From: Sinohyriopsis cumingii
Taxonomy: Eukaryota; Mollusca; Bivalvia; Unionida; Unionidae
Assembly: GCA_028554795.2 (NCBI GenBank)
Contig: CM068839.1
Span: 90,678,182 to 90,742,181 of the forward strand
Reading direction: 5' to 3'
DNA length: 64,000 bases
Shown here: positions 13,017 through 64,000 of the stretch, one piece after another
Layout: each line of letters begins with the position of its first letter
Numbering within the stretch: the first letter of the stretch is position 1
The notes under the pieces: generated by a model
What the model saw: only the letters and a program-made list of their open reading frames with translations
The model's database searches: none
Told to the model about the DNA's origin: nothing
Translations under genes and position numbers: made by a program

Positions 13017-13239
13017 TACCAATTTCATGTCTCACTTAAACTTGGAAAACATAAAGATATTATCTTCAAAACAGAAAAAATAAAGCAATGTCCTCGTGCA
13101 AAAATAATCTCATATAGAACAAATCCCGACATGAGGATGAATACCAACGACATATATCACACTGTACTTCCTGCAGATGCAAAAGACTGCTGCGGCCACA
13201 GGTACCTGTATTTATTAGTGGAAAAGGAAAACTATTGAC

Positions 13240-44815: not shown

Positions 44816-44864
44816 GATATTAATGATATCTTTTTAATTCAATTTAATTTTATCATCACCCCTG

Positions 44865-45530: not shown

Positions 45531-45542
45531 ATATTTTATAAC

Positions 45543-46014: not shown

Positions 46015-46046
46015 GGTAAATTAGCGTTTGGGTCTGGTAGTATATA

Positions 46047-47000
46047 ATGGAATCAATTTATTATTCACCAAGAGGATACTGGAAAGGTAAAGCAGCAATT
46101 AGTAAACTTGCTAATGCAGCAGCGGTTAAACATTCTACTGCTAAAACCTGGTTATCCAAACAAGCAATATGGCAAATTTACCTACCACCACCGAAACAAA
46201 TTCAGTACGCGTATTTCGATGTTAGTGTTCCTAAAGAAGTTCATCAAGCTGATATTTTATTTTTACCATATGATACTGTACGTAGAAAAATTTACAAATA
46301 CGCGTTAACTGTTGTTGATGTTGCAAGTAGATATAAAGATGCAGAACCTCTATCAACGAAAACATCATCTGAATTAGCCGATGCGTTTGAACGAATTTAT
46401 CAACGAGGAACATTACGATGGCCACAATTATTACAGGTTGATCCTGGTAAGGAATTTCTTGGTCCAGTATCATCGTTGATGAAACAACATAATACCAAAA
46501 TACGACGAGGACATGCTGCGATTCACCGTGATCAGGCAATTGTTGAGCGATTTAATAGAACACTTGCTGAGCGGTTATTTGGATATCAATACGCTAAGGA
46601 ATTTATTCAAGATAAAAGATCTCGCGAATGGGTTGCAAGATTACCAAGCGTGATAGCTGCATTAAATAATGAGATTACACGAACAACCAACATGAAACCC
46701 ATTAATGCAATTACAAAAAGAAATATACCAACACAACGAAAAGATATAGAAAAACAAAAAATGTTGGGTGATGTTACAGTTAGATATTTATATGAACCGG
46801 GTGAACTTGAAGGTGGTAAAGCGAGAGCGACTAATCCTATTTGGAGTGTTACCACACACAAAATATCCACCGTGACAAGATCCTCAGGTAGACCTGCAAT
46901 CTATAGATTAGATTCGGCTGCTCCTCAACGTTGATTTACACGTGAACAACTACAAATAATTCCCGAGGATACACAATTACCACCGCGATCACTTAACTAG
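46047..47000 (+). pseudogene. Retroviral-type (rve) integrase, premature TGA
   Basis: The 295-aa frame has an N-terminal helical part, then the rve core: D69 (HQADILFLP), D132 (LLQVDPGKEF) and E167 (AIVERFNRTLAERLF). The D,D-35-E spacing is as expected. A C-terminal chromodomain-like stretch (NPIWSVTTHKIS, GRPAIYRLD) follows. TGA at 46932-46934 interrupts the frame; 21 further codons (FTREQLQIIPEDTQLPPRSL) continue in frame to TAG at 46998, so the stop is a late lesion. It inserts the element's DNA into the host genome. The start lies on TATATAATGG. Its tail overlaps the convergent helicase/HNH frame. Confidence 0.9.
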
Positions 47001-47532
47001 CACCCAAGGCGCTGGCGCCTCTACGTCGATTACACTCGAGACAGGTCAACATCACATTTTCTCGTGATTGACCGCGACTATTATCTTTTCTGTCTACGGT
47101 AAATTGTCTTGAATCATTATTCGAATACCTCCACAGCATTATACAATTACAACTTGCGCAATGATTATTCTGCTGCTGTTTTAACTCAATAATAAATTCA
47201 ACATCAAGATCAAAGTCGCGTTTATTTTTTTTATCAGATTGTTTGTATCCGATTAATTTTTTTCTTATTATATCATCATCGATGATGTTAAAATTATTAA
47301 CGATTTCAGGAATTATAATTCTACGTAATTGAGATATTTTTCTAACCCTCGATACCGCTAAATAAACTAAATTTAACCACTCGATGCGATCGTCTACAAT
47401 CCAAACTCGTGTATCAGAAATAGTTAATCCCTGAGACGAGTGGATCGTCGTAGCGTATCCCAACACCGATGGAGATTTGTCAGCGCGTAATGCATCTTCG
47501 ACCACACTTGATATCAACAGCGACAATATCAT
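46993..47532 (-). pseudogene. Helicase C-terminal domain fused to HNH nuclease
   Basis: 179 aa. LGYATTIHSSQGLTISDTRV and then LVYLAVSRVRK are SF1 (Pif1/RecD2-like) motifs V and VI. A zinc-bound HNH module follows: HCASCNCIMLW, FTVDRKDNSRG and CLECNRRRG. The frame is shifted by one relative to the upstream helicase part (break near 47500). It is therefore the C terminus of the polymerase-helicase frame, not a separate gene. It overlaps the integrase end by 8 bases, tail to tail. Confidence 0.8.
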
Positions 47533-47545
47533 TTAATACGAGATT

Positions 47546-48427
47546 TTATTTCTCAGTCTGTCCTGGAATATCAACATTAATATTCTGTTTTCGTGTATCT
47601 GATGGTCTATAACATAACGGTACGGGTAATTCTGAATATTTTTCTTTATGCAGCTGAAATAACTGCTGTTGTAAAGCGTCTCTGATTATTTTTCTGCTTG
47701 CTACTATCAAATCGTTGGGTCTCCATAAATTTAAAAAATCGTTCATTGAGGTCTCTGAGATCACTTCACGTATTACTTCACACTGAATTTTGTTTGATTG
47801 TAATCTGATTAATTTTTTAAACTCCTTTAAATTTGTATCGAGATCTCTATGATCATCATCTATTTCTTCGTAATAATCAACGAAATGTTTTAACCAATCA
47901 TGTGGAAATGGTCCAACAAAAGGCGGCGGTTGACCATGATCGCCACACATTATTATAGCGGTATTTTTCGTCAACAACCAATCAAGAAACATTTTTAATG
48001 TATCCAATGACACCGTGCATATCTCGTCCCAAATAATTTTTTTATGTATATATTTTTCTCCCATTCGTTCAGGAGTCCATGTATCCCCGCGCCACCGAAA
48101 GAAACTATGTTACGTGCACGATTGTACTTGCCGTTGTTTCATCTCTCGTGCAAGTCTATGTGCGGGTGTCAGCACGATCATATCTGAATTTCTAAAAACA
48201 TTAATTGCTCGAGTCGTTTTTCCGCATCCACCAGGTCCATTGAGATATACTGTCTTATATCTAGTTATTCGATCACTCAACGATGGTGCTTTCCACATTT
48301 CTGATATTTTATTACCCTTACGATAAATATCTCTCATTGGAACACCTGTTGATTCTGTGTAACTGTGTAATATTTCCTTTTTTATTCTCCACGAACTCCA
48401 TCGTTCATCATTACTTGTGAATTCCAT
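47546..48427 (-). pseudogene. SF1 helicase N-terminal part
   Basis: TVYLNGPGGCGKTTRAINVF is Walker A (within the ORF ending at 48110). After an in-frame TAA (48110-48112), the same frame continues to IIWDEICTVSLDTLKMFLDW (Walker B) and AIIMCGDHGQPPPF (motif III). It ends at TAA 47546-47548. Superfamily 1 helicases of the Pif1/RecD2 type unwind DNA during replication. It is continuous in frame with the polymerase upstream. Confidence 0.85.
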
Positions 48428-50470
48428 AACAGATTCTAAATATTTACTCGACATATAAAACGAATCTGTTGCGACTCTGACTGCGGTCTCAGGAAATCTA
48501 TTAATCATCGATAACAAATTTATAGAAACATAAGCCAACATGGAAGATCTTAGATGAGTATACTGTGGGGAGATATCATTTATATAACTAACGATCGTAC
48601 CCAATTTTGTTCCGTCGGATAAATAAACACTTTCTCGCTTTGCAAATATATTTCTCGCTGTTGTATCAGCGATTATAAAATCGTACTCGGCATCATCTAG
48701 AATTAATCGTGTGTGATGTCTTTTATGATCATATGCACCACCTTAAGTAAATTTACCTATAATTTTTCTACCGAGATCTTTTGCGGTTTTGAGTTTAATC
48801 TCGAGAATTTTAGGAGCTTCTCTGATAATATCATCTTCGGAAACACCAGGACATTTTTCTTTAAATTCCTTAATAACTTCATCGAGACTGATGGAATCTG
48901 ACATGGGCAACCAAACTTCGGTCTGCGCGTGATATGATATAATTGCCTTACTGACAACCAACGATGTCAGTATCGCACAATCTAGCATATATCGTAATAA
49001 AACTATAGGCACCCAACGTTTTTCACAAAAATGTCTGCCAAACCAAACATAACAAATCTTGTGAAGATTTTCGTTAAACTCGAATGATTCAACACAAGCG
49101 AATCCAGTCAGATCAAAATCAGGTAATGGTCCATTAATTGCCACTCGCGTCATCTCGTTAGTAGGGTGACCAAATCTTTTAAAGTACACAGAACAATCTC
49201 CGTATCCTAGAAAACTTCCCGGATAACATGCAACCATATCAACCGAGATAACATCATTGTAATTATACTTGGTATTCCACAATCCGCCGTGTCCGTATTC
49301 GACGCAACTTGCGTGTACGTCCTCGAGTAAATCAAATCGTGTTGGTTTCCATGAATTTTTTTCTCTGGCAAAATGAGCCGCAACAGATGGAACGGTAAAG
49401 CAATTAGTTAGTAATTTGTCAGTATTTTCCGCGTGCTTGCACTCTAAAAACTTCTCCGCGAGATTTTTCATCTCGTCATGGAGAAATTCTGTTCGATATA
49501 TTTCACCGTTTGGTCTAACAAACTGATCAAATCCACCTTCCTCATTACTTTTAAATAACCATACCGATACAGGATCGTTTTTACTTATTTCGTTGATAAA
49601 ATCAAACATGCTCATATCTGAGGGGTAAAATCTAATAGTTCGATCACGTGGAAATATTGTTACTGCGCTGGCCCATGCGTGCGCGTTATGATCAATAATA
49701 TTTATTGAAGCTCCTTTCGATTTATATTTTGATTCGTACAGTATTTATCCCGTTATTGTCGCTACGGTTATTGGAAATTTTAAAATTTTTCCTAACTCAG
49801 CAACATCTTTTATTGTAGCACCGGTATCCTTAACTGAATCAGCCCACGAGTTTATATTTTCACGTCTTAAATCAGTTAATCCATTTCCACGCATCGCGTT
49901 TGTAAAATGTTCTATTACTCGTTCAGCTACACAATTTAACCTTGAAAATTTCATGGGTGTCAGTTTATCAACGTTGGGTTTTTTATTTATCTCATAGATT
50001 CCATAAATAACTGCTGTTACAGGACACGCTCGCTCATAATAGGGTTTGTCAATACACGTCAATAGACCCGGTCTGGAAATTTTACTTAATAAGGCAATTT
50101 TATTATTACCAAGGACAGGATCATATTTGTCACGGATAATCCAACTACCTGTTTCTGTTCACACAATAAATTTTACTCTGAAGAAATATTTTTGATTGCC
50201 CTCGTACTCAGCGATGTAGTTAATGATAGTTGCCGCTCGTTTGTCATTCATTGTGGCGTCCTTGATAGTATTACGTATAATCTTGAACGTTGACCATACA
50301 TGAGATGCACCATCTGCATAAAATTCTTTCTTGGCCTCGTGAATTTTATTGATCAAACTTTCATTTTTCGGATCAACCAAATCTCGTACTGGTAAGTTAT
50401 GAGATAATATGTCGAGATTAAATTTATATTTAGAAGGCCTAGTTTGGGATAATCTCTCAAACTCATCCAT
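48428..50470 (-). pseudogene. Family B DNA polymerase (viral/organellar type), broken
   Basis: The start is MDEFERLSQTRPSKYKF at 50470, on an AATTATATGG tract. The same frame continues through TGA (50159-50161), TAA (49745-49747) and TAA (48743-48745). Motif A is SVDMVACYPGSFLG, the motif B region is LKTAKDLGRKIIG, and motif C is VRVATDSFY. The segment with NIIDHNAHAWAS precedes the catalytic core, as in DNA_pol_B_2-type proteins. A clear 3'-5' exonuclease triad was not identified. In Polintons this enzyme is the protein-primed replicase; terminal-protein function is not shown here. Four fragments in one frame indicate decay by point mutations rather than indels. Confidence 0.85.
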
Positions 50471-50510
50471 ATAATTAAAACAAATATTTAAATAAAAAAT
50501 ATTATATATA

Positions 50511-50771
50511 ATGAATCAACAAATCCTGTAGAGGTGAATTTTGTTGGATGCACTTACAAAATATACGGCGAGGAAGCTTAGGACCAATACCATGTCTGCG
50601 ATGTGGTATTGGGGTGCGAGGAAAACAGAATTATGTGGAAAGTGCGGTGGAAAACGGTTCAGAGAACTTAAAAGATATTATGACAAAAAAAATAATAATA
50701 GTGAAAACGCTATAAAATCCGTGGAGGATTATATATCAAGATTTCAGACAAACAATGATTTAAACAAATAA
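50511..50771 (+). pseudogene. Short CxxC-containing hypothetical
   Basis: An ATG at 50511 sits on TATATAATG, but two in-frame stops (50529, 50535) follow after six codons. The frame is then open with ELCGKCGGKRFRELKRYY, a possible zinc-binding CxxC and a basic region. No family is recognised. It could be a broken small gene or chance. Confidence 0.3.
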
Positions 50772-50783
50772 TATTATTGTATA

Positions 50784-51242
50784 ATGGAGCAAAATATATT
50801 TGTCCCACATCCTGTCATAACAAACTATGAATCAGATCGTAATGGTGTCATCAGACACTGCAGGTTAAAAAGACCGGTTGGTGTTGTTACTAATACTGGC
50901 CATCTTAGATTTACTGTAGGGAAGAAAAGATATCTCTGTCATCGTTTCATCCACGAATGTTCCTTCGGAGTGATCAAAGATGATCTTGTTATTGATCATG
51001 TTGACGGGGATCCTCAAAATAATAGTTTATCCAACCTTCGAGTTATCACACAAAGCGAGAACTCTGCATGTGGTAATACTGGAAGATGTAAGACAGTTTC
51101 TAGAAGGGCTGTAAATTCTACAAACACAGAAACTGACGAAGTAATTATATTTCGTTCGATATGTTCTGCTGCAAAATACTTTGATATTCACTCATATTCA
51201 GTACAGAAAGTAGCAGAAAATATATATAAAACCGGTTTCTAA
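50784..51242 (+). CDS. HNH (HNH_3-type) endonuclease
   Basis: 152 aa, intact, starting on TTGTATAATGG. An N-terminal strand-rich part (NRNGVIRHCRLKRPVG-like) is followed by the HNH core CHRFIHECSFG, LVIDHVDGDPQNNSLSNLRV and ITQSENSAC. The C terminus, FRSICSAAKYFDIHSYSVQK, looks like a NUMOD1-type DNA-binding helix-turn-helix. This is the architecture of phage and giant-virus homing endonucleases. It lies between the polymerase and the repeat-rich middle of the element. It may be a passenger selfish gene. Confidence 0.85.
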   Translation: MEQNIFVPHPVITNYESDRNGVIRHCRLKRPVGVVTNTGHLRFTVGKKRYLCHRFIHECSFGVIKDDLVIDHVDGDPQNNSLSNLRVITQSENSACGNTGRCKTVSRRAVNSTNTETDEVIIFRSICSAAKYFDIHSYSVQKVAENIYKTGF

Positions 51243-52165
51243 AAAAAATATAAGCAGAAAATCACCTTTCGATATCAATAACTATCATCACCACCTCGAA
51301 TTAGATTTATTAACTATTTATTTTTGGGTCATAAATTATCATTATTATACTACTTATTTTTTTACTCATGAAAGGGAGGTAATTTTATGATCCTCGGTAT
51401 ATGGTCATAATCATATACAACATCCAAGGTCTGTGATGCCTGGTGGAGCATACCCGTTTATGATTTCTAACTTACAAAAATATACAGTTCGTTTATTTTT
51501 CTGCTCTATTCGTGAAACATTTAGAACAGCGAAACACATAGACAGCACATAGAATACATGTATATTTCATCTAACCTACAGAAAACCGAGCGCAGTATGA
51601 CATGTATATTCCAGCTTACTGAGTGCAGAATCCAGCGTCTAGCCTGTACGATCGTGGCGGGTTAATTTTAGATCCAATGTACAGCACATGGATCCTGCAT
51701 ATACTGACTCGATTACAGAAATACGTGCATAATAGTGTTTGGAATTAAACATTAGTTGCATTTTTCTTGTTCAGTGCAGAAATATAATGCGAGATTGTAT
51801 ACGTATGTGTGATTATTTATTTATCGAGTAATACTCCCTTTGACCATGTTCACGGATACAGATTACGAATGGAAAATCTCGTAATATATATTTCTCCATT
51901 GAACAATCATAGAGAGGAGGGAAAAATCTAGCAGTTAGATGATCTGGACCGGATGTTCTATCATAGATGGCGTGATTATGTGCGGTATAGTAAATAGGAA
52001 ATTCCTTAATCCAGCTTTATAAATCTAACTTGTTTGGTGAAAATATATTGTATAAACGTATTTCTTGAATTCAGAATTGTATTTTGAGCAAAAATATTTG
52101 AAATTAGTTCCTTTTCAATGATTATTAGCTATATATTAACTTCCGAAACATATGTTTGTAACAAG
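51243..52165. other. No gene seen
   Basis: Non-coding sequence inside the Polinton-like element. It has no ORF with recognisable features. Confidence 0.45.
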
Positions 52166-52238
52166 TTTCGATAGCTCAATCGGTATCGTATTGGACTGTG
52201 ACGCTTGCGGTCCAGGATCGAATCCCCATGGCTGACAA
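52166..52238 (+). repeat. Degenerate tRNA-like sequence
   Basis: An A box (TAGCTCAATCGGTA) and a B box (GGATCGAATCC) are correctly spaced, with a pairing TGGAC/GTCCA around a GTG. The T-stem and acceptor stem do not pair well, so it is a tRNA-derived remnant or SINE head rather than a functional tRNA. Confidence 0.35.
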
Positions 52239-52414
52239 CTGGTCGGTGGTGTGCGCATAATTGCGATTTTTATAATAATTGGGGGCACCGCAAAACCCCC
52301 CGCTCAGCAAAACTCAACCACATATCAACCGGTGGTTGATACATATTTTCGTATCATCCACGGGCTTGATTATTGTGGGTGGGTTTTTTTTCTGAGCGTA
52401 TATGTTTGTACTGT

Positions 52415-52715
52415 CCTTCATTCATTTCATTCATTCATCGTATATATTCATTCATTGTATATATTCATTTCCTTAATTAAGTTATATGTTTGTACTGTCC
52501 TTAATTAAGTTATATGTTTGTACTGTCCTTAATTAAGTTATATGTTTGTACTGTCCTGAGCTCGATAATACACTCGATAGGAGCTCGTCATTCATCGTAT
52601 ATATCCATAATCTGAGCTCGCTAATACACTCGATAGGAGCTCTTCATTGTATATGTTGTGCTGTCCTTGAAACATCCCGACGAACTCGCTAAAGACTCGA
52701 TAGGGGTTCTATAGG
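52415..52715. repeat. Two adjacent short tandem repeats
   Basis: Four copies of a ~28-base unit (TATATGTTTGTACTGTCCTT, then AATTAAGT) are followed by copies of GAGCTCGATAATACACTCGATAGGAGCTC-like blocks that contain SacI-like palindromes (GAGCTC). Confidence 0.8.
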
Positions 52716-52753
52716 GATATTTTATTTTATTTTAAAGATTTATATATTATATA

Positions 52754-53124
52754 ATGAACCATGAAAATATCAAAGACATTATTTCTGCTATTAAAAGACT
52801 AGAAGAAAACGGAATTAATATATCTGATGAACTAAATCCTGAATAATATCTGATTTTGAAACGTTAGAAGAACTTAAAAATGAAAATAAGTATGTTCTAT
52901 CATCTCAATATAAGTTCATAAAGCGGATTCAGGCAGCTATGTTTCAGTCACTGGCTATGGTGAACGATGATCAAGTAAATGAATTTATTCCTCTTTCTGT
53001 CGCAGTAGAAAAGATCAGGTCGGGATTATCCAGCGAGTACGAAATGAAAAAAACAATCAGTACCCGCATAAGATACTTAAGAAAAATTATGTCAGCGGGT
53101 AACGACCAAAGCAATCCTGAGTAG
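52754..53124 (+). pseudogene. Small acidic/helical hypothetical, frameshifted
   Basis: ATG 52754 sits on TTATATAATG and encodes 30 residues (MNHENIKDIISAIKRLEENG) before TAA 52844. An adjacent frame, open from 52843, continues helical sequence to 53124 (EELKNENKYVLSSQ, ISTRIRYLRKIMSAGNDQ). The two together would give ~120 residues, mostly helical. No family is recognised. The shared TATA-ATG start suggests a former gene of the element. Confidence 0.45.
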
Positions 53125-53189
53125 TAATATAATTTCCCTCATTGTATATCACATCAGAATTAATTTACATAAAAAAATAAAATATTTTA

Positions 53190-54265
53190 GAATAATAATA
53201 AAATATTTTTTGGAAAGCTGATTGATTTTTATACTTTTAAGTGGCAATCACCCCATCAGAATTAAGAAATTAATTAATTTACATAAATAATAAAATATTT
53301 CAGAATAATAATAAAATATTTTTTTGTAGTATTTTTTGGAAAACTGATTGATTTACATAATTTTCAGTACCAACCACTCCATCAGAATTAATAAACTGAT
53401 TGATTTGTATACTTTTAAGTACCAACCACCCCATCAGAGTTAATAAACTTATTGATTTGTATACTTTTAAGTACCAACCACCCCATCAGAATTAATAAAC
53501 TGATTGATTTACATAATTTTCAGTACTAACCACTCCATCAGAATTAATAAACTGATTGATTTACATAATTTTCTGTACCAACCACTCCATCAGATTGATT
53601 CATAAAAAATTAAAATATTTCAGAATAATAATAAAAATATTTCAGAATAATAATAAAAAAAATTTTGTAGTATTTTTTGGAAAACTGATTGATTTACATA
53701 ATTTTCAGTACCAACCACTCCATCAGAATTAATAAACTGATTGATTTGTATACTTTTAAGTACCAACCACCCCATCAGAATTAATAAACTGATTGATTTA
53801 CATAATTTTCAGTACCAACCACTCCATCAGAATTAATAAACTGATTGATTTACATAATTTTCTGTACCAACCACTCCATCAGATTGATTCATAAAAAATT
53901 AAAATATTTCAGAATAATAATAAAAATATTTCAGAATAATAATAAAAAAAAATGTTGTAGTATTTTTTGGAAAACTGATCAATTTGCATAATTTTCAGTA
54001 CCAATTACCCCATCACAATTAGCAAACTTATTAATTTACATAATTTTCAGTACCAATTACCCCATCAGAATTAGCAAACTGATTGATTTGTATAATTTTC
54101 AGTACCAATTACCCCATCAGAATTAACAAATTGATTGATTTGTGTAATTTTAAGTATCAACCACCCCATCAGATTGATTCATAAAAAAACGAAATATTTC
54201 AGAATAATAATAAAAATATTTCCGATTGTACAAAATTGATTAATTTGTGTAATTTATCCCATCAG
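53190..54265. repeat. ~1.1-kb tandem-repeat array with higher-order structure
   Basis: A ~52-base unit containing AAACTGATTGATTTACATAA and CCAACCACYCCATCAGA is repeated many times. It is interspersed with AAATATTTCAGAATAATAAT blocks. A larger block of ~340 bases (53320-53660) is repeated at 53660-53945. It has no coding potential and separates the left (replication) genes from the right (virion) genes. Confidence 0.9.
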
Positions 54266-54282
54266 TGATTATATTTATTTAT

Positions 54283-54552
54283 TTACTCTGAAATATTATT
54301 TTTTTTAAGTTGATCGAGTTTAATACAGGAGTGTATATAATTTAGAATCTGATCTCTGTTACAAATGATCTCGATAATATGTTCTCGGCGGAGCTCATCT
54401 AACTGTTCTTGTGTTAATAAGAAATCCTCGTTTCCGTATTCATCAATAACTAAATTAACGTTAAATTGCTCTGTGTTTTGTGAAAACGCTGTTCTGATGG
54501 CGTTTTCAAGTGCTTCTTTGTCATGCATAAAAACCATCACGTGCTGGTACAT
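54283..54552 (-). CDS. Hypothetical 89-aa protein of the Polinton-like element
   Basis: Intact ORF starting MYQHVMVFMHDKEALENAIR, with the ATG fused to ATTATATAATG. It is acidic and helical (DFLLTQEQLDELRREHIIEI), with no recognised domain. It is first of the long minus-strand virion block in map order and last in transcription. It is likely a real gene because of its start motif and packing. Confidence 0.55.
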   Translation of the reverse strand: MYQHVMVFMHDKEALENAIRTAFSQNTEQFNVNLVIDEYGNEDFLLTQEQLDELRREHIIEIICNRDQILNYIHSCIKLDQLKKNNISE

Positions 54553-54586
54553 TATATAATATTTACTGGATTAATTAAGATTTCAC

Positions 54587-55374
54587 TTACAGATTTATTA
54601 CAAACTCTTCTCCACGTATGTCAGTTAAGCGATTAAGGTGGTCTGTGAGCTTAAAATTTATTCGTGTTAACATATTATTGTGACACCGCAGATACACAGG
54701 ATTAGTTGGTTCCTGCACGAATAAACTTCCAGGGGGGACTTGTGGTGTAAATGTATATAAAATATATCCCTGTTGAGCCTGATTTGATCTTCCGAGATCT
54801 ATTTGATAGCTGCCATCGACTACGTCACAAACCAGATTGACCACGATCGTGCTGGTTACATTAACGATTCCTGGAGATATGTGCCTGCCACCGCCATGTG
54901 GATCATTATCATGTCTGAGAACAGTTGGAGGTGGTATTAGTTTTTTCCACGCATCGAGTATTTTAGGAAAATTTTCCGTGATAAGATCGTTGAATATTTT
55001 TACTAGTTCCCCAGCATTAACCCCTGGCACCACAAACGTTGGTAATTGTTGTTCAGTTATTTTGTAATGATTAAGAAACAATTCTCTAGCGCTGTAATTA
55101 TCAATAATTTCATGACCGGATTTAACCATATTCACAATGATAGTTTTATTAACGTAACTAAGATCTGATATAACCTGATTTAGACGTTTTATCGTCTCAA
55201 TGATTTGCTGTTTCACATCATCGCTGTAGCTATCAGAAAAGAAATTTCGTAGTTTATTGATTGATTGTTTCAATTCAAAATTAACAGGATCAGAATATGA
55301 TTGAATAAATTTTTCATCGACGAGTGGATGTTTTCTAACATTTCCATAAGTACGTACATCATTTATTATTTTAG
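54587..55374 (-). CDS. Putative minor virion protein B
   Basis: The frame is open from ~55374 (NDVRTYGNVRKHPLVDEKF follows a stop); the first ATG-type start is unclear. The middle is helical. The C-terminal ~110 residues are strand-rich: VNVTSTIVVNLVCDVVDGSY, YTFTPQVPPGSLF, NPVYLRCHN and FKLTDHLNRLTDIRGEEF. I recognise the TITP.VPPG...P..VYL...RI.F.L.D...R....RGE pattern from Polinton/adintovirus-type virion proteins of unassigned role, possibly vertex-associated. It pairs with the next gene, which carries the other half of that pattern. The start may have been lost by a small deletion. Confidence 0.55.
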
Positions 55375-56037
55375 GAAAGCTTTACCATCATCTGCTCTTA
55401 TAAAAACGGAAAAAACGGTCTGTTTCCACGGATATTTATCTCGATATTCAGGAACTGTTATAAATTTCCTTTCATCTGTAATAAAATCAGCCCGAGTTGG
55501 TTCCAGTGGTATCGGTGTTATCTGTGGTGGTGATATTTCAGGCCAACCTAGTACGGATCTTATCGATGATTGATAAATATCAACGGCATAATCAGGAGAA
55601 TGTATCTCAACCGTCGAGGACAGCGTCGGCTCATAAACATTAATTGATTTTTTTGCTTCTTTTCCTGTTATTGATTTTATTCTACGTTGAAATTCCTCAT
55701 TGATTTGTTCGATCTCATAACTACCAGTGGGTATTCCAACATCTATCCAGTCAGGAGTACCATCTGGTTTGTTCTTGTTAGCAAATACAAGCGAATTATT
55801 TGCTGGTGTACCATTAAATGATTTTGATCTGATATTTGGCCAGCTGTAATATACCCGTAATTGCGCTAGTGCTATTTCTTTTACTGGAATTGCAGTAGGA
55901 AAGTTAATACTAAATTCAGGATCAGATGAACTTACCGAGATCATCGTTATCTTTGGCGAAGTTGTATTAGTCACGATCTGCTGAAGTAATTCTGTCATTA
56001 TTAGTACTTGTATCTTTAATACCGATACCTTCGTCAT
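55366..56037 (-). CDS. Putative minor virion protein A
   Basis: Intact 223 aa, starting on AAAATATATGACG. It shows KITMISVSSSDPEFSINFPT, LAQLRVYYSWPNIRSKSF, IPTGSYEIEQINEEFQRRIK and YQSSIRSVLGWPE. The sequence YYSW.NI...P.GSYEI..IN...IRSVLG is the N-terminal half of the same virion-protein pattern seen in the preceding entry. The 3' end overlaps the neighbouring frame by a few bases. It is probably a capsid-associated (penton-like or minor) protein; the role is inferred. Confidence 0.55.
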   Translation of the reverse strand: MTKVSVLKIQVLIMTELLQQIVTNTTSPKITMISVSSSDPEFSINFPTAIPVKEIALAQLRVYYSWPNIRSKSFNGTPANNSLVFANKNKPDGTPDWIDVGIPTGSYEIEQINEEFQRRIKSITGKEAKKSINVYEPTLSSTVEIHSPDYAVDIYQSSIRSVLGWPEISPPQITPIPLEPTRADFITDERKFITVPEYRDKYPWKQTVFSVFIRADDGKAFLK

Positions 56038-56148
56038 ATATTTTAGTCATCATTGAAAATTCAAAATCAGATATAATTCAGTCACTGAGACTCGCTGATA
56101 ACAACGAAGATTACTTCGAGTATGCGACCGTCGCTGTATGTAATCTTA

Positions 56149-56451
56149 TCATGTAGTCGGATAATTTTTCATTCGTGCAGGTACATATTTTTTTGCGATG
56201 ATATTAAGCACACCTGCAATCGTTGTTGCTGCTTAAATACAAATAGTTACAGCTACTGGTGCCATCATCGTCACCGCTGATAATATAACACCGGTTCCAG
56301 CAACAACAGCGGATACTGAATAAACGATTACGTCCACGATAACTAATCGTAGTTGATATTTTTTTACTTTTACTGTATATTGTTCGACTCGATCTTTTAA
56401 TGCTGCCTGCCATTCACGCGCTTGATTGTACCTGTATTGTGCACCGTCCAT
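56149..56451 (-). pseudogene. Small membrane protein, in-frame TAA
   Basis: The start MDGAQYRYNQAREWQAALKD lies on AAAATATATGG. An amphipathic helix (RVEQYTVKVKKYQLRLV) precedes two hydrophobic segments (IVDVIVYSVSAVVAGTGVIL, VTMMAPVAVTICI). TAA at 56233-56235 is followed in frame by AATTIAGVLNIIAKKYVPAR to TGA 56149. Size and topology are SLATT-like, and small membrane proteins of this kind accompany virion genes in Polintons. The predicted two-segment topology is visible; the function is inferred. Confidence 0.6.
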
Positions 56452-56457
56452 ATATTT

Positions 56458-57464
56458 TTATGCAGTAAATAATTGAGGTGTTTCAGCTACAAATTCCAAA
56501 CACCACCAGTAAGATGTTGCGGATATCTTATCAGCTGCTTCCAAAATAAATATTTCTTCGGTTCCGCTATTTAATACAACAGATACAACCCCGGAAAACT
56601 TATCGGTTGAATGACGCCATGGAAACGTTGTAAATATTTCAAATTTTGCAGCACTGAACACAGACAACCTGTACACGCCAGTGACTGTTGCGGTATATTT
56701 GATAGTTTTATTTTGCTGCGACCATGTTGCGAATCCAGATGATACAGTATATACGATGTTTGTGATATGTCCTGGAGTTATTCCGGCTGGAATTTTAATC
56801 AGACTGGTTTTGTTAACGATATCAGGAATCCCCGCTACATATCCTGCTGTGTTTGTTTGATCGTGTCGATGTTCGTCTTAATATCAGAAAGTTTCATGTC
56901 GATGACGGGAGGAGTTCCAAAGAACTTATCCATAGATTCATCGGTTTTTAGATGGTTTCTGCGAAATCTTCCAAAAACGCCTACGTGAACGTCATACTCG
57001 GCCCGCAACGTGGATAATTTACTATCTACGTTTTCAACGTATAGTTTGTTTGCGACGTCGTTGTCAGATATTGGAATTGTTACAGCTGTTATTTTGTTTC
57101 CGTTCATGCTGAGTTCACCCGTCATTGTGTCGCCGGTGTTTTTCACGCGATTAGCAATACTTGCTGTAATTTGATCTCTGATGGTTATAAACGATATACT
57201 TGAATCCCTGATTTTGCCGCTGTCAGTAAACACAGGAATATTATCCGTAACTGCACCGAGTACTCGTCGAACTATATCATTCCATCTGATGTTGCTCGTT
57301 TTTAGTTTTCCATATCGATCCTGAAAAATAACAACTTCATCTGGGTCAACTCCAGCCAGGTTCATGATATCAGCGAGTTTTTCTTTAGTTGCGAACTTCG
57401 ACAGATCAACGTCGGATTTTTTTTTCTTACTGGTAGAAGAAGATCTTCCGTAAATATCAACCAT
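56458..57464 (-). pseudogene. Fibre-like virion protein, frameshifted
   Basis: The start MVDIYGRSSSTSKKKK lies on AAAATATAATGG. The stalk-like region has NTGDTMTGELSMNGNKITAV and DNDVANKLYVENVDSKLS, phage tail-fibre-like repeats that form trimeric beta structures. The 209-aa frame ends at 56835. The adjacent frame carries a strand-rich head (GIPDIVNKTSLIKIPAGITP, TGVYRLSVFSAAKFEIF) to a stop at 56458. The frame change is near 56840. The head probably binds host receptors. The intact length would be ~335 aa. Confidence 0.65.
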
Positions 57465-57470
57465 TATATT

Positions 57471-57911
57471 TTAAGATCTGTTTAAAACGAATCGGTTACT
57501 TGTATAATCATGCACGACTTTATGTGGCGGTTTGGATGATTTTGATATAGCGTTAAGTACATTAGTTACTTCACGGCCACATATTGGCGGATCTGTCATT
57601 GTTTGTGTGGGTAGCGTTGAATACAAAACTTTGGAACCAGAGGTTCTTGCGTGATGTGGTGCGACGTACTTGATAAATTCAACGGGTGGAGCTAACCCGT
57701 ATGAATCAAAATAAACAATTCCACGTGGATCAACCGCTTATGATACCCAATGAGTACCGGGTCCTGAATTTGAGTCTAGATTAATAATACCTGTTTCGAG
57801 TTTGTTTGGTTGTTTTGGTAATTGATCTCGCATAAAAACACCTCTAAAGTTTTTATTCTTAATTTTTAGCAACATCAAGTAAATCAAAATTTGATGCTGG
57901 AACGTCTAACG
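57471..57911 (-). pseudogene. Adenain-like maturation protease, broken
   Basis: Missing from a simple ORF scan because of breaks. Reading minus, NFDLLDVAK is followed by a one-base shift in an A-run near 57868. Then come NFRGVFMRDQLP, GIINLDSNSGPGTHWVS (catalytic His in GTHW), TAA at 57738-57740, and in frame GIVYFDSYGLAPPVEF (acidic residue) and PPICGREVTNVLNAI (catalytic Cys). The end is at 57471. This His-Asp-Cys order and NFRGVFMRD block identify the adenovirus-type cysteine protease that cleaves virion precursors. The 5' end overlaps the pX-like gene. Confidence 0.85.
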
Positions 57912-58349
57912 TGGAAGCCTCAGACCTCTTCCCCAGCAAGATCCCGGTAATCTTAGGCCGCGTCCCTTTTTTTGTATCCATTTCCTGTTGCTTTCTTTAG
58001 AGCCAATGCAGCAGCTGTTCCAACAGCACCTAACGCGGCTGCTTTTGCTACGGCTGGAGCAGCAGCAGCTATTAACGCTGGAATAGCCGCAAGAAGTGGA
58101 AATATACTACCCGTTTTAACCATGTATTTGATGGCGCTCGGAGAAAGATGGAATTGAACTCCGGTTTTTTATTCTAGGACTTTATTGAAATGTTTAATCT
58201 GATTATTTGTCAACGCTAATTTGTTTGGACCACCACCCATCTGATCTCGTTTTAGTGATATTTTAGTTCCGCATTTGCTGGTGGTTTTTGATTGAAGCTT
58301 TTTGACCTGACCGGGAGTCAGAGTAACATTAGCATGACTATACGACATT
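57906..58349 (-). pseudogene. pX-like membrane-active virion protein, broken
   Basis: Also missing from a simple ORF scan. ATG 58349 (MSYSHANVTL, on TTATATAAAAATG) shifts frame near 58320 to PGQVKKLQSKTTSKCG. It meets TAA 58169-58171, then continues VQFHLSPSAIKYMVKTG and a hydrophobic Ala-rich segment (PLLAAIPALIAAAAPAVAKA). After an A7 run near 57975 the adjacent frame ends with GRGLRLPGSCWGRGLRLPR. A basic N terminus, a hydrophobic helix and repeated G-x-G-L tails are typical of Polinton pX/pVI-like proteins, which are protease substrates. Two indels and one stop are present. Confidence 0.75.
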
Positions 58350-58377
58350 TTTATATAAATAATATTTTTCTGAATAG

Positions 58378-59801
58378 TTAAAGATTTTCCACTGGTGCAT
58401 CAACGACTCTCATTCGACCACTACCACCTTCAAGTAACATGGCTTTATCGCTGAGTATGACCGCGATTGCTCTGTAGAAGGCAGCACCACCTGGTGGGTT
58501 AGTAACACGAGCTCGAAAGTGTATATCAACGACAGATTGTTTGGATAAATCAAGATGTTCCAGTGAAAAATAATAAATCGGATATAGATTTGTAAAATCT
58601 AGTTGTGGTATTTGCAAACCAGTATCTATATTTTGATCACGTCCCATGAATGACATTAAACGATTATATGCACGCGCTACATGATTTTGATCAAAATTTA
58701 ACAATATATCTTCAGTTGGTTCTTGATGTCCATTTATCCACAAGGAAACTTCATTAACTCCAAGATTGTCAAATATCATATGTGAATGTTCTTGATTATT
58801 TGTCCGGTCATTATTTTGCAGCGCAATAAAAATATGTCGTGGTGAAGAAACACCCTGTTGTGATGCTATATGCCATGTAAATAAACCATTAACATTACTG
58901 TGAATAGCATCTGTGGTTACTGTTAACCATGATAGCAATGATTTACCGCCTGAATCCATAAAAGAAAGTAATTTTTGTTCCTCAGTAATTGATGGAGTCA
59001 TTACTGGCATCCATAATGAAAGTTTTGATATATTTACTTTACCATCAGCAACACCAGCACCTCGCCAGATTGCATCATTATCTCACCTTTTCTTACGAGC
59101 ACAATTGTGTGTTTAGCTCCAAAGATGACCTTTCTAACATTTCTGCAAAATCCAAAGATGTGAGATAATGGAATTGGACACGAAAAATTTCTATCATTTC
59201 CTGACAGCGCTGCTCGACGTGTTGCAAACCCTAAGTTGTAAGTCGTATTAACACTTCCTATAATATCAAAAGCAGTACCTGGTCTGGCTGCGTGTTCAAA
59301 GTCAACTGGCTGTGGATCAACTGCAGTATCCTGTGCTGTCCGTATTTTAGTATACTGAACATGATCAGCGTGGTTAGTAATATCCTTGGCAAACATCATT
59401 GTTGGACCAGCTGATCTTGTGTAATCATCAGAATATCTCGCTAGACCAATTATTATTGTAGCAACATCAACATCCTTCTGAATCGATTCGATATTTTTTC
59501 CATCGATCATGTAAGTGGCGCTATCAAACAACGCCATAATTCCGTTTTTGACAAAACCAACACGCAAATTAGCAGCATATGGCGTATTAGCTACAACATT
59601 CGTTACAAGTCTATCTTCTACTTCAATAAACGCCTCAGAGGGCAAGAAATATCTACTTGTATCGTGAACCTGTAATTCGATTCTCCCCCGCTGATTTGGT
59701 TGTCTTGCGTCATAGGAATAAAACTGATAATCACGTACAGATTCATACTTAAGGACAGGTGCCTCCATATCAAATGCTGTGTCTGTTTCACGCTTGAACA
59801 T
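58378..59801 (-). pseudogene. Major capsid protein (double jelly-roll), frameshifted
   Basis: The 255-aa N-terminal frame has a strand-rich start (LQVHDTSRYFLPSEAFIEVE), ALFDSATYMIDGKNIESIQK, and the hallmark CPIPLSHIFGFCRNVRKVIF followed by GAKHTIVLVRKG. A one-base shift near 59085 (A-run) moves to NDAIWRGAG and then the 210-aa frame: MPVMTPSITEEQKLLSFM, RHIFIALQNNDRTNNQ, VSLWINGHQEPTEDIL and VVDIHFRARV, ending at 58378. Combined length ~474 aa fits Polinton-type capsid proteins. It forms the icosahedral shell. Confidence 0.9.
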
Positions 59802-59839
59802 TTTATTATAATTACCATTTTTCCAAATGTTGATCTAAA

Positions 59840-60296
59840 TCATCGTCGACGAAGACCGCTTCCTGCTATTAAATTTGCTGTTATATTTTTTTCTGCTTCT
59901 TCAGATAATTCCGCTAGTTTTTTATTTGCAGCCTGATTGGGTCCTTGATCTGCTAACGCCGCTAGTTTTTGATTTGCTGCCTGATTTATTATTTTACTTA
60001 CGTCTGCGGGCATCACCTCAGTACTTGGTAATTTTGCCGGTTGTTGTTTTCGTCGCAATAATCGTGCTAGTCTATCTTTGATCGCCGAGAACGCCTTACC
60101 AGCAACATTGACAATTGCTCCAGGAGCTTTATCACGAACAATATCGATATCTTTCATCGATAATTGGAGCTATCCTTGTAAATAATCCCTGAATAACATC
60201 ACCAAGTCCATCTCCGTAAGTAGCTCTGTAGATTGGTAATCGTGAGTTTACCGCTCTGACCTGTACAGGTTTACGATGATTATTATGTATGATCAT
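59840..60296 (-). pseudogene. pVI-like minor virion protein ending in GSGLRRR, frameshifted
   Basis: ATG 60296 (MIIHNNHRKPVQVRAVNSRL) reaches GDGLGDVIQGLFTRIAPIID and then shifts one base near 60160 into the 105-aa frame DIDIVRDKAPGAIVNVAGKA. It is lysine/arginine-rich, contains a duplicated QAANQKLAALAD/QAANKKLAELSE segment, and ends AGSGLRRR. A short amphipathic start followed by a basic region and a glycine tail is reminiscent of adenovirus pVI-type proteins. It lies between the capsid and coiled-coil genes. The role is inferred. Confidence 0.6.
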
Positions 60297-60324
60297 CTTA
60301 TTTTATTTGTTATTTATCAAACAA

Positions 60325-61413
60325 TTAGTCACTATAATCATCAACAAGTTCATCGATAAGTTCTCGGTAAACTCCGATATCCATAATACCGCCTTGAAAT
60401 AATCGCCGACAAATATCAGCTGCTTCATTAATTATTTCTGGTGAATTATTTCCGGCACGTTTTCCTCCTATGAGAACTTCTAACCGTGACACATCATTAA
60501 TGATATTATCAGGACATAAACCAGATCCTGTTTTAGGTTCATCTTGAGGTGTTTTAAATACTGGTGGTTGCATCACCGGATAAAGTACTTCAGTGGTGAC
60601 CGGGGATATGTCAGGTGAGTCACTTATTCGAAATCCATGTGGTGAATCTACCGGTGAATATGTCATTGCCGGCGCAGAAATTTTTTTACGTTGTAAAGCT
60701 GGAGGAAGCTGATACTGGGAGAGTTGTTCTTGTTCTTGTTCTAGTCTCTCTCTACGAAGTATTTCTACTCCTTTATAAAGATCTTTGTATTTCGAATCAT
60801 TACCTTCAACCCGTCTTTTGTTTGCATGTATACGATATATCCATTTAATAAGATCTTCATTTTTTACTTTTTCATGACGGGGTTTTAAAATACGAGATTT
60901 GTCAGATATATAATCTAATATTTTTTCGGGTAATTTTTCTCTTTCTAATATCTTCAGAACCTCTTCCTTAAATCTTGCAATTAATTTTATATTTTCTTTT
61001 ACTGGCTTGGATTTAGGTGCATGTTCCTTTTGCACGTCGGCGACTTCAGCACGAAGTTTTCCAATACTTTCAAGTATTTCTTCACTAACAGGTGGAGGTT
61101 GAGCCACAGCTATATCAGGTGGAAGATCTCGTAAAATCTTTTTTGTCTGTTTAGTTCTTCTTGCTATTTTTTCGGTTTGTTCTGCTGTTTGGTTTGATAC
61201 CGGAAGAAGATCTTCTTTGATGACTGTTGTAACTTTCTCAGTAGCTGCAGTGACGGGTTTAAACAGTTTTTTAGTGTCTTCTTCGTACTCAACTTGTGCT
61301 TCTTGCTGCGCTTGTAGATTTTTTCTAAATAAATCTCGCACGGGAAGAAATTTTTTAATTGCTTCTAGTCTCTCTCGTGCTATTCTTGCATTATGAGATT
61401 CTGGATGTACCAT
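60325..61413 (-). CDS. 362-aa coiled-coil virion-associated protein
   Basis: Intact. It starts MVHPESHNARIARERLEAIK, with long charged helices (EEDTKKLFKPVTAATEKVTT, RTKQTKKILRDL). A middle WIYRIHANKRRVEGNDSKYK block resembles a small helical domain, and a Pro/Ser linker follows. A GSGL tail motif (KTGSGLCPDN) is followed by LEVLIGGKRAGNNSPEIINE. That final block (short helices around AGN.S.E..NE) recurs in unassigned Polinton proteins I have seen. It is first in transcription of the minus virion block and ends 24 bases before the right terminal repeat region. The function is unknown. Confidence 0.7.
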   Translation of the reverse strand: MVHPESHNARIARERLEAIKKFLPVRDLFRKNLQAQQEAQVEYEEDTKKLFKPVTAATEKVTTVIKEDLLPVSNQTAEQTEKIARRTKQTKKILRDLPPDIAVAQPPPVSEEILESIGKLRAEVADVQKEHAPKSKPVKENIKLIARFKEEVLKILEREKLPEKILDYISDKSRILKPRHEKVKNEDLIKWIYRIHANKRRVEGNDSKYKDLYKGVEILRRERLEQEQEQLSQYQLPPALQRKKISAPAMTYSPVDSPHGFRISDSPDISPVTTEVLYPVMQPPVFKTPQDEPKTGSGLCPDNIINDVSRLEVLIGGKRAGNNSPEIINEAADICRRLFQGGIMDIGVYRELIDELVDDYSD

Positions 61414-61442
61414 TATTTTTAATATAACAATTTTTTAATTAA

Positions 61443-61498
61443 TAGCAGCAGAGAGGGCTCGTCTACAATTCTGTTTGGGACAAACAATAATCGTAGAC
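61443..61498 (-). repeat. Right 56-bp terminal inverted repeat of the Polinton-like element
   Basis: Exact inverse of 44638-44693. With the left copy it encloses ~16.9 kb carrying the complete Polinton-type gene set. It is followed outward by GTGAGTAGTG; no duplication of the left flank (ATACCAA) is visible. Confidence 0.9.
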
Positions 61499-61514
61499 GT
61501 GAGTAGTGAATGGG

Positions 61515-61765
61515 GATACTAGAGCCTCAATGGGAATTAGCATTACAGACCCCCCCCCCCCGGGAACATATAGCCTCAATGGAAATTTAACATGGAGAAA
61601 AATCGTGGGAACATATAGCCTCAAGGGAATTTAACATGGAGAAAAATCGTGGGACGATATAGCCTCAAAAGGAATTGAAAATGGGAATAGAGGACTGTAT
61701 AGCGTCAAAGGAATTTAAACAGGGTGGGACTGTATAGCGTCAAGGGAAATTGAACATGGGATTTT
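61515..61765 (+). repeat. ~44-bp minisatellite beside the element
   Basis: Five to six imperfect copies of a unit like GGGAACATATAGCCTCAA, then GGGAATTTAACATGG. They degrade to ACTGTATAGCGTCAA variants towards the right. A C10 run sits at ~61552. The array lies between the element and the histone-type module and is non-coding. Confidence 0.85.
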
Positions 61766-61834
61766 TTTTTTTTAAATTTTTTTAAAAAAAGGGGTAGGCA
61801 ATTGAAAGTCATTCTCTTTTCGAGAAATGTGGGT

Positions 61835-61850
61835 GGCCCTGAAAAGGGCC
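61835..61850 (-). terminator. Histone-type 3' stem-loop (minus gene)
   Basis: On minus the sequence is GGCCCTTTTCAGGGCC followed by ACCCA. This is a six-base stem with loop TTTC and the canonical flank, as in replication-dependent histone mRNAs. A purine-rich GAAAAGAGAA (complement at ~61811-61820) follows as the U7-type downstream element. It begins ~24 bases after the stop codon at 61875. Confidence 0.9.
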
Positions 61851-61860
61851 TTTGGGTTTA

Positions 61861-61880
61861 TGTTAATATTAATATTAACA
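61861..61880. repeat. Perfect 20-bp AT palindrome
   Basis: TGTTAATATTAATATTAACA is fully self-complementary and overlaps the last codons and stop of the minus 77-aa ORF. Confidence 0.85.
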
Positions 61881-62108
61881 TAGATGGCATCTGTCACATC
61901 TTCTTCTTCTTCTTAAACTCCTTCTAACTGCAGGTCCATACACAAGTACGCTCTTCAGACATCCTTGTCTTTCTATGTAAACTCTTCTCATCCATAGACT
62001 AGTATCTGTCCTATCAACAACAATCCACTTGGACCGGACATACATGAGCATGTCCGTCCTAAACATCATTGAAGACACAAGGGTGGATGATTCAACTGTG
62101 GTCCACAT
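61875..62108 (-). CDS. 77-aa protein with histone-type 3' end
   Basis: The ORF MWTTVESSTLVSSMMFRTDM ends in a strongly basic, Cys-containing tail (RRSLRRRRRCDRCHLC). No family is recognised and it is not a histone. On minus a TATAAATA (plus 62152-62160) lies ~45 bases upstream of the ATG, and the stop is followed by a perfect histone-type stem-loop. It is divergent from the 191-aa gene, in the layout of animal H2A/H2B pairs. The promoter and processing signals support it being a real transcription unit. Confidence 0.65.
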   Translation of the reverse strand: MWTTVESSTLVSSMMFRTDMLMYVRSKWIVVDRTDTSLWMRRVYIERQGCLKSVLVYGPAVRRSLRRRRRCDRCHLC

Positions 62109-62149
62109 CTTGAAGCGACGAGAACAGGTGAATCAATGCAGTGAACTGC

Positions 62150-62300
62150 GATTATTTATAGGTAGAGGAAGGATTCAAACGGATTGAGTTCATTCACCAA
62201 TCCTAACACGCGTTACAAAATTCAGTCAGCCCGCATCCAATCCGAAGAGAGCAGTTTGTGACGTCACGTGGTCTATATAGATTCGCTAGCGCCTGTGTGC
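62150..62300. promoter_or_regulatory. Divergent promoter region with CRE, E-box and two TATA boxes
   Basis: For the plus gene: TGACGTCA (62259-62266) overlaps CACGTG (62265-62270), with TATATA at 62274-62279, ~50 bases before the ATG at 62328. For the minus gene: TATAAATA at 62152-62160. These are standard animal core-promoter elements arranged back to back. Confidence 0.75.
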
Positions 62301-62327
62301 AGTCAATCTATGCGACAGTGAATCAAC

Positions 62328-62903
62328 ATGACGGAAACTCAGAAAACGATCCAATGGGGTGCACCAGCAGGGGAGACCGCCCAAGGGAACCCGGACCTAC
62401 TTTCAGAAGAGGTAAATTGGGATTTTGTGGATTTTCTTACCTCGCAAGAATTTGTTCCGGAACCTTCGTTACCTTCTTCATTACCGCAAGTGGAGAATTT
62501 TAGACAGAGACAGAAAGAAGAATTGGAGAAATTTATACAACGACAAAAGGAAGCGGAACAAGCTTTTCTCCTACAGCAACAGCAGCAAGAAGAAGAGGTA
62601 AGAAAAAAACAACAACAAGAAGAAGTAGCAGCAGCAGCAAAGAAACAAGAGGGTGAAAATCAAACGGTCACAGTACTGTTGGACATTTCAGCGGAGTTAA
62701 GAAGTCTGAAACAAATGTATCAGACTTCTTTATTACGACCGAAGAGAATACGACCTTCCCGAGCTAAACACGTCAACCCTGTGACTAAGCCTACCGTACC
62801 ACCCTTAGTGATTTCAACCCAATCATCATCATCAACATTACGCAGTCCAGAAGTAGGCCTTGGCCGTGGCAAAGGCTTAAGACAGTTAAAGTTGATTGCT
62901 TAA
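62328..62903 (+). CDS. 191-aa coiled-coil, Gln/Glu-rich protein with histone-type 3' end
   Basis: The start MTETQKTIQWGAPAGETAQG matches the first ATG after the TATA box. Residues ~55-105 form a Gln/Glu/Lys-rich coiled coil (RQRQKEELEKFIQRQKEAEQ, QQQQQEEEVRKKQQQEE), followed by TVTVLLDISAELRSLKQMYQ and a basic tail (RPKRIRPSRAKHV, GLGRGKGLRQLKLIA). No histone fold or other family is recognised. The stop at 62901-62903 is followed 24 bases later by a perfect histone-type stem-loop. A structural or DNA-binding role is possible but unproven. Confidence 0.8.
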   Translation: MTETQKTIQWGAPAGETAQGNPDLLSEEVNWDFVDFLTSQEFVPEPSLPSSLPQVENFRQRQKEELEKFIQRQKEAEQAFLLQQQQQEEEVRKKQQQEEVAAAAKKQEGENQTVTVLLDISAELRSLKQMYQTSLLRPKRIRPSRAKHVNPVTKPTVPPLVISTQSSSSTLRSPEVGLGRGKGLRQLKLIA

Positions 62904-62926
62904 ACTCACCCCTACACCAAAGAAAA

Positions 62927-62942
62927 GGCCCTTTTCAGGGCC
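62927..62942 (+). terminator. Histone-type 3' stem-loop (plus gene)
   Basis: GGCCCTTTTCAGGGCC then ACCCACATTTCTC, with a purine-rich GGAAAGAGA at 62957-62965 as the downstream element. The element is identical to the minus copy at 61835-61850, and spacing to the stop codon is typical for histone mRNAs. Confidence 0.93.
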
Positions 62943-63191
62943 ACCCACATTTCTCGGAAAGAGATAGCCTTTCAATTTGCCAATAACTCAACAAAAAAAA
63001 AAACAACCCATTTTACCCCTATAGTACGTGTCTTTGTATCAGTACGTGAGTGTACGTTCTTATTTTAAAATCAAAACTCAAAGACACTTACCTTATATAA
63101 TTAATTTATTCTTTTATCCATTGTTACAATCCAATTCACAATTCACAGCAGAACACTTTAAAAAGTTCATTGACTTCTTCTGTCTCATTGT

Positions 63192-63676
63192 TTACTCTCT
63201 CTGTTTTTTAAATTTCTTCACCGTCTTTTCCTCTTCTTCCTCCTCACTTTCTTCCCTTCTTCTTTTCTTCTCCTGTTTCTTTTTCTTTGCCTCTTGTAAA
63301 TAGAATTGTCTTCTTTCTTCCTCTTCTTCCTCTGAAGAATCCCTCTCTTCCTCTGAAGAATCCCTCTCTTCTTCTAAAGAATCCCTCTTTTCTTCTGACT
63401 CCTGTTGTTTCTTTTTTGGGCAATCTGGAGACCAATGTCCTTTTTCTTGACAATAATAACAGGTATCTTGACTTTTGTCTTTTCTATCCGCTTTTTTTCT
63501 TTTTGACGGTCTGGACACTCTGAAGACCAATGCCCTTTCTTCTGGCAGATATAGCAAGTATCTTGACTTTTATCTCGAAAGGAAGGAGAGTAGTCCGTCG
63601 GCTGGTCTGAAGAGAATTTTCTAATGACCCCTCGCAAAGCTCTGATGAAACGTTCGATTTGGCTCGTCTCTTCCAT
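63192..63676 (-). pseudogene. Two-zinc-knuckle (CCHC) protein, frameshifted
   Basis: The ATG at 63676 (MEETSQIERFIRALRGVIRK) follows a TATATAAAAGG (plus 63730-63740, inverse) by ~55 bases. The first frame carries CYICQKKGHWSSECPDR. A one-base shift near 63500 leads to the second knuckle, CYYCQEKGHWSPDCPKK, then an acidic EEERDSSEEE repeat and a Lys-rich tail (KTVKKFKKQRE), ending at 63192. C-x2-C-x4-H-x4-C knuckles bind single-stranded nucleic acid, as in Gag and CNBP-type proteins. Its 3' end has AATAAA (minus, ~63098) rather than a histone stem-loop. Confidence 0.7.
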
Positions 63677-63810: not shown

Positions 63811-64000
63811 ATGAAACGATCCTATTCATTCGAGAAGAAAGAAGAAGAAAGTAAGAGGCAGAAACGTGATCTATCGCCTCGTACCAGGGCTGAAATCTTG
63901 GCACAAATTCATGCCAGTGATTTTGAAGAGGACATGAGTGAACCAGAATCCGAACCCTCTAAACCAAGTTCGTCACCCTTAGTCAACCCTGAAAAATACT
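63811..64000 (+). CDS. Partial ORF running off the window
   Basis: The ATG begins MKRSYSFEKKEEESKRQKRD, then RTRAEILAQIHASDFEED and an acidic Ser/Pro-rich stretch (MSEPESEPSKPSSSPLVNPE), still open at the last base. The start is basic and resembles a nuclear-localisation signal. A TATA box ~50 bases upstream supports this start. No family is recognised from the 63 visible codons. Confidence 0.6.
   Translation, partial: MKRSYSFEKKEEESKRQKRDLSPRTRAEILAQIHASDFEEDMSEPESEPSKPSSSPLVNPEKY

Follow-up and report, generated by a model that had tools for sequence, protein, structure and literature searches.

Histone-type 3′-end signals on a divergent pair of conserved non-histone genes in Sinohyriopsis cumingii

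Replication-dependent histone genes of animals are marked by a dedicated 3′ end. SLBP binds the histone hairpin, U7 snRNP binds the purine-rich element, and the pre-mRNA is cut a few nucleotides past the stem. The poly(A)-free histone-type mRNA that results is stable in S phase. ACCCA and ACCCACA have been given as histone cleavage sites (PMC6303110), and histone mRNAs have been described as the sole non-polyadenylated protein-coding transcripts in animals (PMC12819152). In Lucina, the palindrome is present in the histone mRNAs and purine-rich elements are found near it only in some of them (PMC6210712). Adomaviruses encode histone-like ‘Histoid’ proteins, with no stem-loop mentioned in the passages on them (PMC11071296). 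The znf460 and sesn3 mRNAs are non-histone and poly(A)-minus, and the portion of the source that deals with them mentions no histone stem-loop (PMC3188798). The bracovirus histone H4 described in PMC12819152 is a case in which a viral or symbiont element turns the host's histone system to its own use; there, however, the protein itself is a histone, while at the locus described below the mRNA 3′ end alone is histone-like. Among the titles and abstract openings listed from the open-licence literature, no non-histone or viral genes with a histone-type 3′ end are described.

The locus lies in a 64-kb stretch of S. cumingii DNA, which we refer to as the window and to which all positions relate. 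It comprises two divergent, single-exon ORFs, one coding for a 191-aa protein (62328-62903, +) and the other for a basic 77-aa protein (61875-62108, −). As in histone genes, each stop codon is soon followed by a stem-loop, an ACCCA cleavage site and a purine-rich downstream element. The Rfam family RF00032 (gathering score 34; E values computed for the whole window) matches twice in the 64 kb, once past each stop: at 62922-62967 (+) for the 191-aa gene (38.6 bits, E 8.9e-8) and at 61810-61855 (−) for the 77-aa gene (40.8 bits, E 1.4e-8). Beyond these two sites, the window holds no gathering-level Rfam match. Both stems are perfect copies of GGCCCTTTTCAGGGCC, located at 62927-62942 (+) and 61850-61835 (−). 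They are followed by ACCCACA (62943-62949, + and 61834-61828, −) and, beginning 13 nt past the stem, by the purine-rich GGAAAGAGA or GAAAAGAGA (62956-62964, + and 61821-61813, −). The gap between stop and stem measures 23 nt for the 191-aa gene and 24 nt for the 77-aa gene (26 and 27 nt counting the stop codon). An earlier sequence-only reading, that both ORFs stop about 24 bases before a perfect stem-loop with a purine-rich element, is borne out by these gaps and by the RF00032 scores. When the two 3′ ends are aligned, 53 of the 58 columns match (4 mismatches, 1 gap), and the 58-column inverted repeat that flanks the pair is the 3′-end signal itself. Both ends fold into a hairpin of 6 bp with a 4-nt loop, for which 2/200 and 0/200 shuffles fold equally well. 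The pattern GGYYYTTTTCARRRCC has two matches in the 64 kb, both being the hairpins of the pair. With none in 100 shuffles, and given the RF00032 scores, a chance origin of the hairpins is ruled out.

The poly(A) signals give a matching picture. Downstream of the 191-aa gene 289 nt were examined, and 432 nt downstream of the 77-aa gene; neither stretch contains AATAAA or ATTAAA. The minor variants AAGAAA (+17) and CATAAA (+13) are present upstream of the hairpins. The neighbouring zinc-knuckle gene, on the other hand, carries an AATAAA at 63110, about 82 nt beyond its stop, so that two kinds of 3′ end are contrasted inside one window. Between the two genes of the pair, a stretch of 219 bp (62109-62327) comprises a putative bidirectional promoter and the leaders, a designation based on its motifs and on the aligned read-through of three relatives (see below). 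It contains TATAAATAA at 62160-62152 (−), CCAAT at 62197 and 62237, TGACGTCA at 62259 and TATATA at 62274. This layout of a TATA box, two CCAAT boxes and a second TATA box between divergent genes resembles that of a histone H2A-H2B pair. The pair thus shares with replication-dependent histone genes the stem-loop, the ACCCACA, the purine-rich element, a short 3′ UTR, the lack of AATAAA in the tested stretch, single-exon ORFs and a divergent CCAAT/TATA promoter. It differs from them in that neither its products nor its neighbours in the window are histones.

The 191-aa protein is composed of a disordered N-terminus with a conserved NWDFVDFL(S/T)SQEF, a long helix (residues 53-134), a PKR(K/I)RPSRAK stretch and an LGRGKGxRQLK tail. 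Its AlphaFold2 model is a single long helix over residues 53-134 between low-confidence flanks (mean pLDDT 68), and the protein is probably helical and nuclear. The conserved C-terminal LGRGKGxRQLK motif (encoded within 62328-62903) is similar to the GRGK of histone H4/H2A N-tails, a resemblance that could be due to chance. From 720 candidates, 20 relatives were accepted at an E value of up to 0.001, with identities of 59-95%; four of these are partial and cover 24-72%. The family alignment (A1) takes in 18 of the 20. Across 19 members, Pfam yields weak matches to 24 unrelated families (best E 0.007), of which R3H-assoc is shared most often (7/19) and E7 appears in one member (E 0.79). In a midpoint-rooted tree of the 17 proteins longer than 150 aa, the window copy pairs with P0001 (support 100/99), and both fall in a 10-member group (99/97). 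For the 77-aa protein, two relatives are found (77% and 75% identity over its whole length). AlphaFold2 predicts four strands and a C-terminal basic helix with modest confidence (mean pLDDT 66.5), and at E ≤ 0.001 this modest-confidence model finds no structural match in PDB (best 0.35) or BFVD (best 0.079). Searches of the 77-aa family against Pfam and against PDB sequences return no matches.

Histone homology is not detected for either protein. Pfam scans of both families contain no histone family, tblastn with four core histones gives a best E of 0.06 across the window and of 0.61 inside the pair, and phmmer of histones against 66 frame pieces of 61500-63000 reaches a best E of 0.11. The earlier statement that the proteins are not recognisable as histones therefore stands. 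Judged from sequence, the two proteins are genuine, conserved and non-histone.

Flanking DNA of the relatives was inferred from predicted proteins that run past their normal ends, and fits are expressed as codon compatibility with the window DNA. On the 5′ side, the upstream extension of P0021 fits the promoter at 90/120 positions (next best 68) and that of P0009 at 46/60 (next best 37), while tblastn alignments of P0021, P0009 and P0006 reach into the leader. On the 3′ side, TTTCAGGGCCAC is codon-compatible near the expected place in 2/25 proteins, namely P0022 of the 77-aa family and P0011 of the 191-aa family. Shuffled TTTCAGGGCCAC 12-mers (n = 200) average 0.12 sites, and 4% reach two or more. 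The codons of P0022 also fit GCCCTTTTCAGGGC and those of P0011 fit the 18-nt TTTCAGGGCCACCCACAT. From the last family residue to the hairpin, the distance is 40 nt in P0022 and 31 nt in P0011; the corresponding window distances are 27 and 26 nt. The hairpin part fits the homologous window site best (P0022 45/57 vs 36 for the next; P0011 47/63 vs 39), and over the whole 3′ read-through this site keeps a narrow lead (79/123 vs 75 and 57/93 vs 53, respectively). Both hairpins are imperfect: in P0022 the first (outer) stem base has to be an A, and in P0011 TTTTCAGGGCC is not encodable, the loop-closing T being excluded. As both proteins have also lost their stop codon, these copies may be decaying. 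By codon compatibility, P0022 and P0011 show homology of the 3′ end, which is visible in 2/22 relatives, rather than selection on the hairpin. By the same measure, the 3′ ends and the promoter are homologous in some relatives.

The relatives also provide clues about what carries the pair. The longest contig is at most 2.3 kb for every relative, a pattern that high-copy repeats sequenced at low coverage would give, as would plain low coverage. P0008 and P0021 each have a longest contig of 1455 nt in the same two sources, which is suggestive of both genes sharing one contig elsewhere. Identities are mosaic: P0003 and P0005 are 97% identical in the N-terminal and 80% in the C-terminal part, and P0003 and P0015 58% and 91%, respectively (the comparison covers 17 of the 19 rows of A1, two partial rows being excluded). 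Such mosaics would imply either recombination among co-resident copies or chimeric metagenome assemblies.

To the right of the pair lies the zinc-knuckle gene (63192-63676, −; PF00098), with two CCHC knuckles and an acidic/basic tail. Querying the protein database with its downstream-frame piece gave three relatives, P0023-P0025, whose contigs do not exceed 2.2 kb. While the relatives have both knuckles in one frame, the window copy switches frame between them, due to either mutation or a sequencing error. Like other CCHC zinc-knuckle proteins of PF00098 it has two knuckles, but it is small and stands alone, and neither gag nor protease nor polymerase is seen next to it in the window. A divergent gene start with an open frame and a TATA box (63811-64000, +) runs off the window, and together with the zinc-knuckle gene it forms a second compact divergent pair. 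On the other side, about six diverged units of 35-49 bp with a TATAGCSTCAANGGAA core form an array between the Polinton end and the pair (61513-61760, +). The array possibly belongs to the same element as the pair, weakly supported by a tblastn match of P0022 that reaches it at 61857-61729 (E 2e-4) and of which a part is the stem-loop itself.

Known viruses and prokaryotic replicons did not supply a source. The sequence-only reading had suggested looking in viromes; IMG/VR, scanned by pattern and then by tblastn, contains no relatives of the 191-aa, 77-aa, zinc-knuckle or 63811 proteins. Phage and plasmid records hold no relatives of the 191-aa protein, the DNA of 61500-64000 matches no phage record, and none of 80 pattern-matching stretches of prokaryote genomes encodes a relative of the 191-aa family. 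A zinc-knuckle match (L111, one locus of 93 prokaryote stretches) was dropped, as the generic knuckle alone matches. Its contig, NZ_VCHY01000054.1, is titled Labilibacter sediminis and is probably contamination; the ORF looks like a copia-type polyprotein from a eukaryotic retrotransposon. The idea that known viruses habitually use histone hairpins was likewise rejected: of 101 IMG/VR stretches with GGCYCTTTTCAGRGCC, none has ACCCA, ACTCA, ACCAA or ACAAA within 7 nt. Nine IMG/VR stretches with CTTTTCAGRGCCACCCA give no gathering-level Rfam match.

Overall, we give a somewhat better than even chance to the reading that a conserved divergent non-histone pair uses the replication-dependent histone pathway, most likely as part of a compact mobile or virus-like element that exists in multiple copies and also includes the zinc-knuckle gene, whose linkage to the pair is seen in this window alone. 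One 219-bp bidirectional promoter would drive both genes. SLBP would bind the hairpin that ends each pre-mRNA, the purine-rich element would serve U7 snRNP, and cleavage behind ACCCA would yield an mRNA that lacks poly(A) and accumulates in S phase. The products would be a helical, probably nuclear 191-aa protein and a basic 77-aa protein, and S-phase expression would time the mobile or virus-like element to host DNA synthesis. The mosaics and the short contigs count for a mobile carrier, as do the compact neighbouring pair and the apparently decayed copies that lost their stops. Given the mosaics, the short contigs and the lack of relatives in the IMG/VR, phage, plasmid and prokaryote searches, an undescribed mobile or virus-like element is favoured. 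We infer this carrier rather than observe it, because the pair has no linked gene for a transposase, replicase or capsid, and the viral, phage and plasmid searches made brought up no relative. Our preference for a mobile or virus-like multi-copy element over a family of host genes descended from a histone-like unit is close to a coin toss. The stricter version, in which an unrecognised animal nuclear DNA virus or mobile element expresses the non-histone pair only via the host histone mRNA pathway, falls slightly short of an even chance.

The strongest competitor, though an unlikely one, is a host lineage-specific gene family in which the coding part of a duplicated H2A-H2B-like unit was replaced by non-histone sequences, so that the genes would be S-phase but not mobile and could encode, for example, a chromatin or germline protein. 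The two CCAAT boxes between two TATA boxes, the near-identical 3′ ends of both genes and the basic tails and nuclear-type motifs of the proteins all agree with such a family, and so does the failure of the searches made to find viral relatives. Yet no histone remnant is detected in the pair, the zinc-knuckle neighbour is not a histone gene, the next pair (zinc-knuckle/63811) is just as compact and the relatives are mosaic. The sequence-only interpretation had offered a selfish or viral module and a replaced histone unit side by side. Its core, histone-type ends on two genuine conserved non-histone genes, holds, while the two origins may both be partly true because the promoter layout resembles that of an H2A-H2B pair.

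It is improbable that the 3′ ends are mere relics picked up from histone DNA, with transcripts that are polyadenylated or genes that are silent. The frame change in the zinc-knuckle neighbour and the imperfect hairpins of P0022 and P0011 would suit such a history, but drift would break hairpins, whereas both in the window are perfect. Moreover, AATAAA and ATTAAA are absent from the tested 289 and 432 nt downstream, and homologous 3′ ends persist in P0022 and P0011.

Still less probable is that the pair represents an accessory early region of the adjacent Polinton/Maverick. This element of about 16.9 kb (44635-61501) lies immediately left of the pair, which begins about 300 bp from its end. The proximity speaks for membership, and no target-site duplication is seen by eye at the Polinton ends; its 59-nt inverted repeats (44635-44693 and 61443-61501), however, close before the pair, which lies outside them. 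The Polinton contains an A32-type ATPase, an rve integrase that falls marginally short of its curated cut-off and double-jelly-roll capsid pieces, of which one passes its cut-off and one does not. As its capsid gene seems to be broken up over two ORFs, this copy looks decayed. A large tandem array is present inside it (53393-54222; 289-bp unit, 2.9 copies, made of 52-bp units). Elsewhere in the window, we observed a 669-aa ORF with a strong DUF6119 match (1946-3955, −; E 7e-19), a 33-bp tandem repeat of 15 copies with several frames open (12521-13017), and DDE_1 transposase pieces at 37989-39709 with an opposite-strand ORF carrying HTH_Tnp_Tc5/CENP-B domains.

Finally, a decayed H2A/H2B repeat with coincidental ORFs, named in the sequence-only reading as the outcome that would overturn it, could explain the histone-like 3′ ends and the divergent layout, but is rejected with near certainty because other DNA encodes conserved relatives of both proteins and four core histones match nothing significantly.

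If the preferred reading of a mobile or virus-like pair on the histone pathway is true, a genetic element can plug into the host histone-message pathway, and these would be, within the reach of our searches, the first protein-coding genes other than histone genes for which use of the histone 3′ signal is shown. A conserved non-histone user would break the rule that reserves the hairpin signal for histone genes in animals. It would also test what the signal alone confers in terms of S-phase coupling, export and decay.
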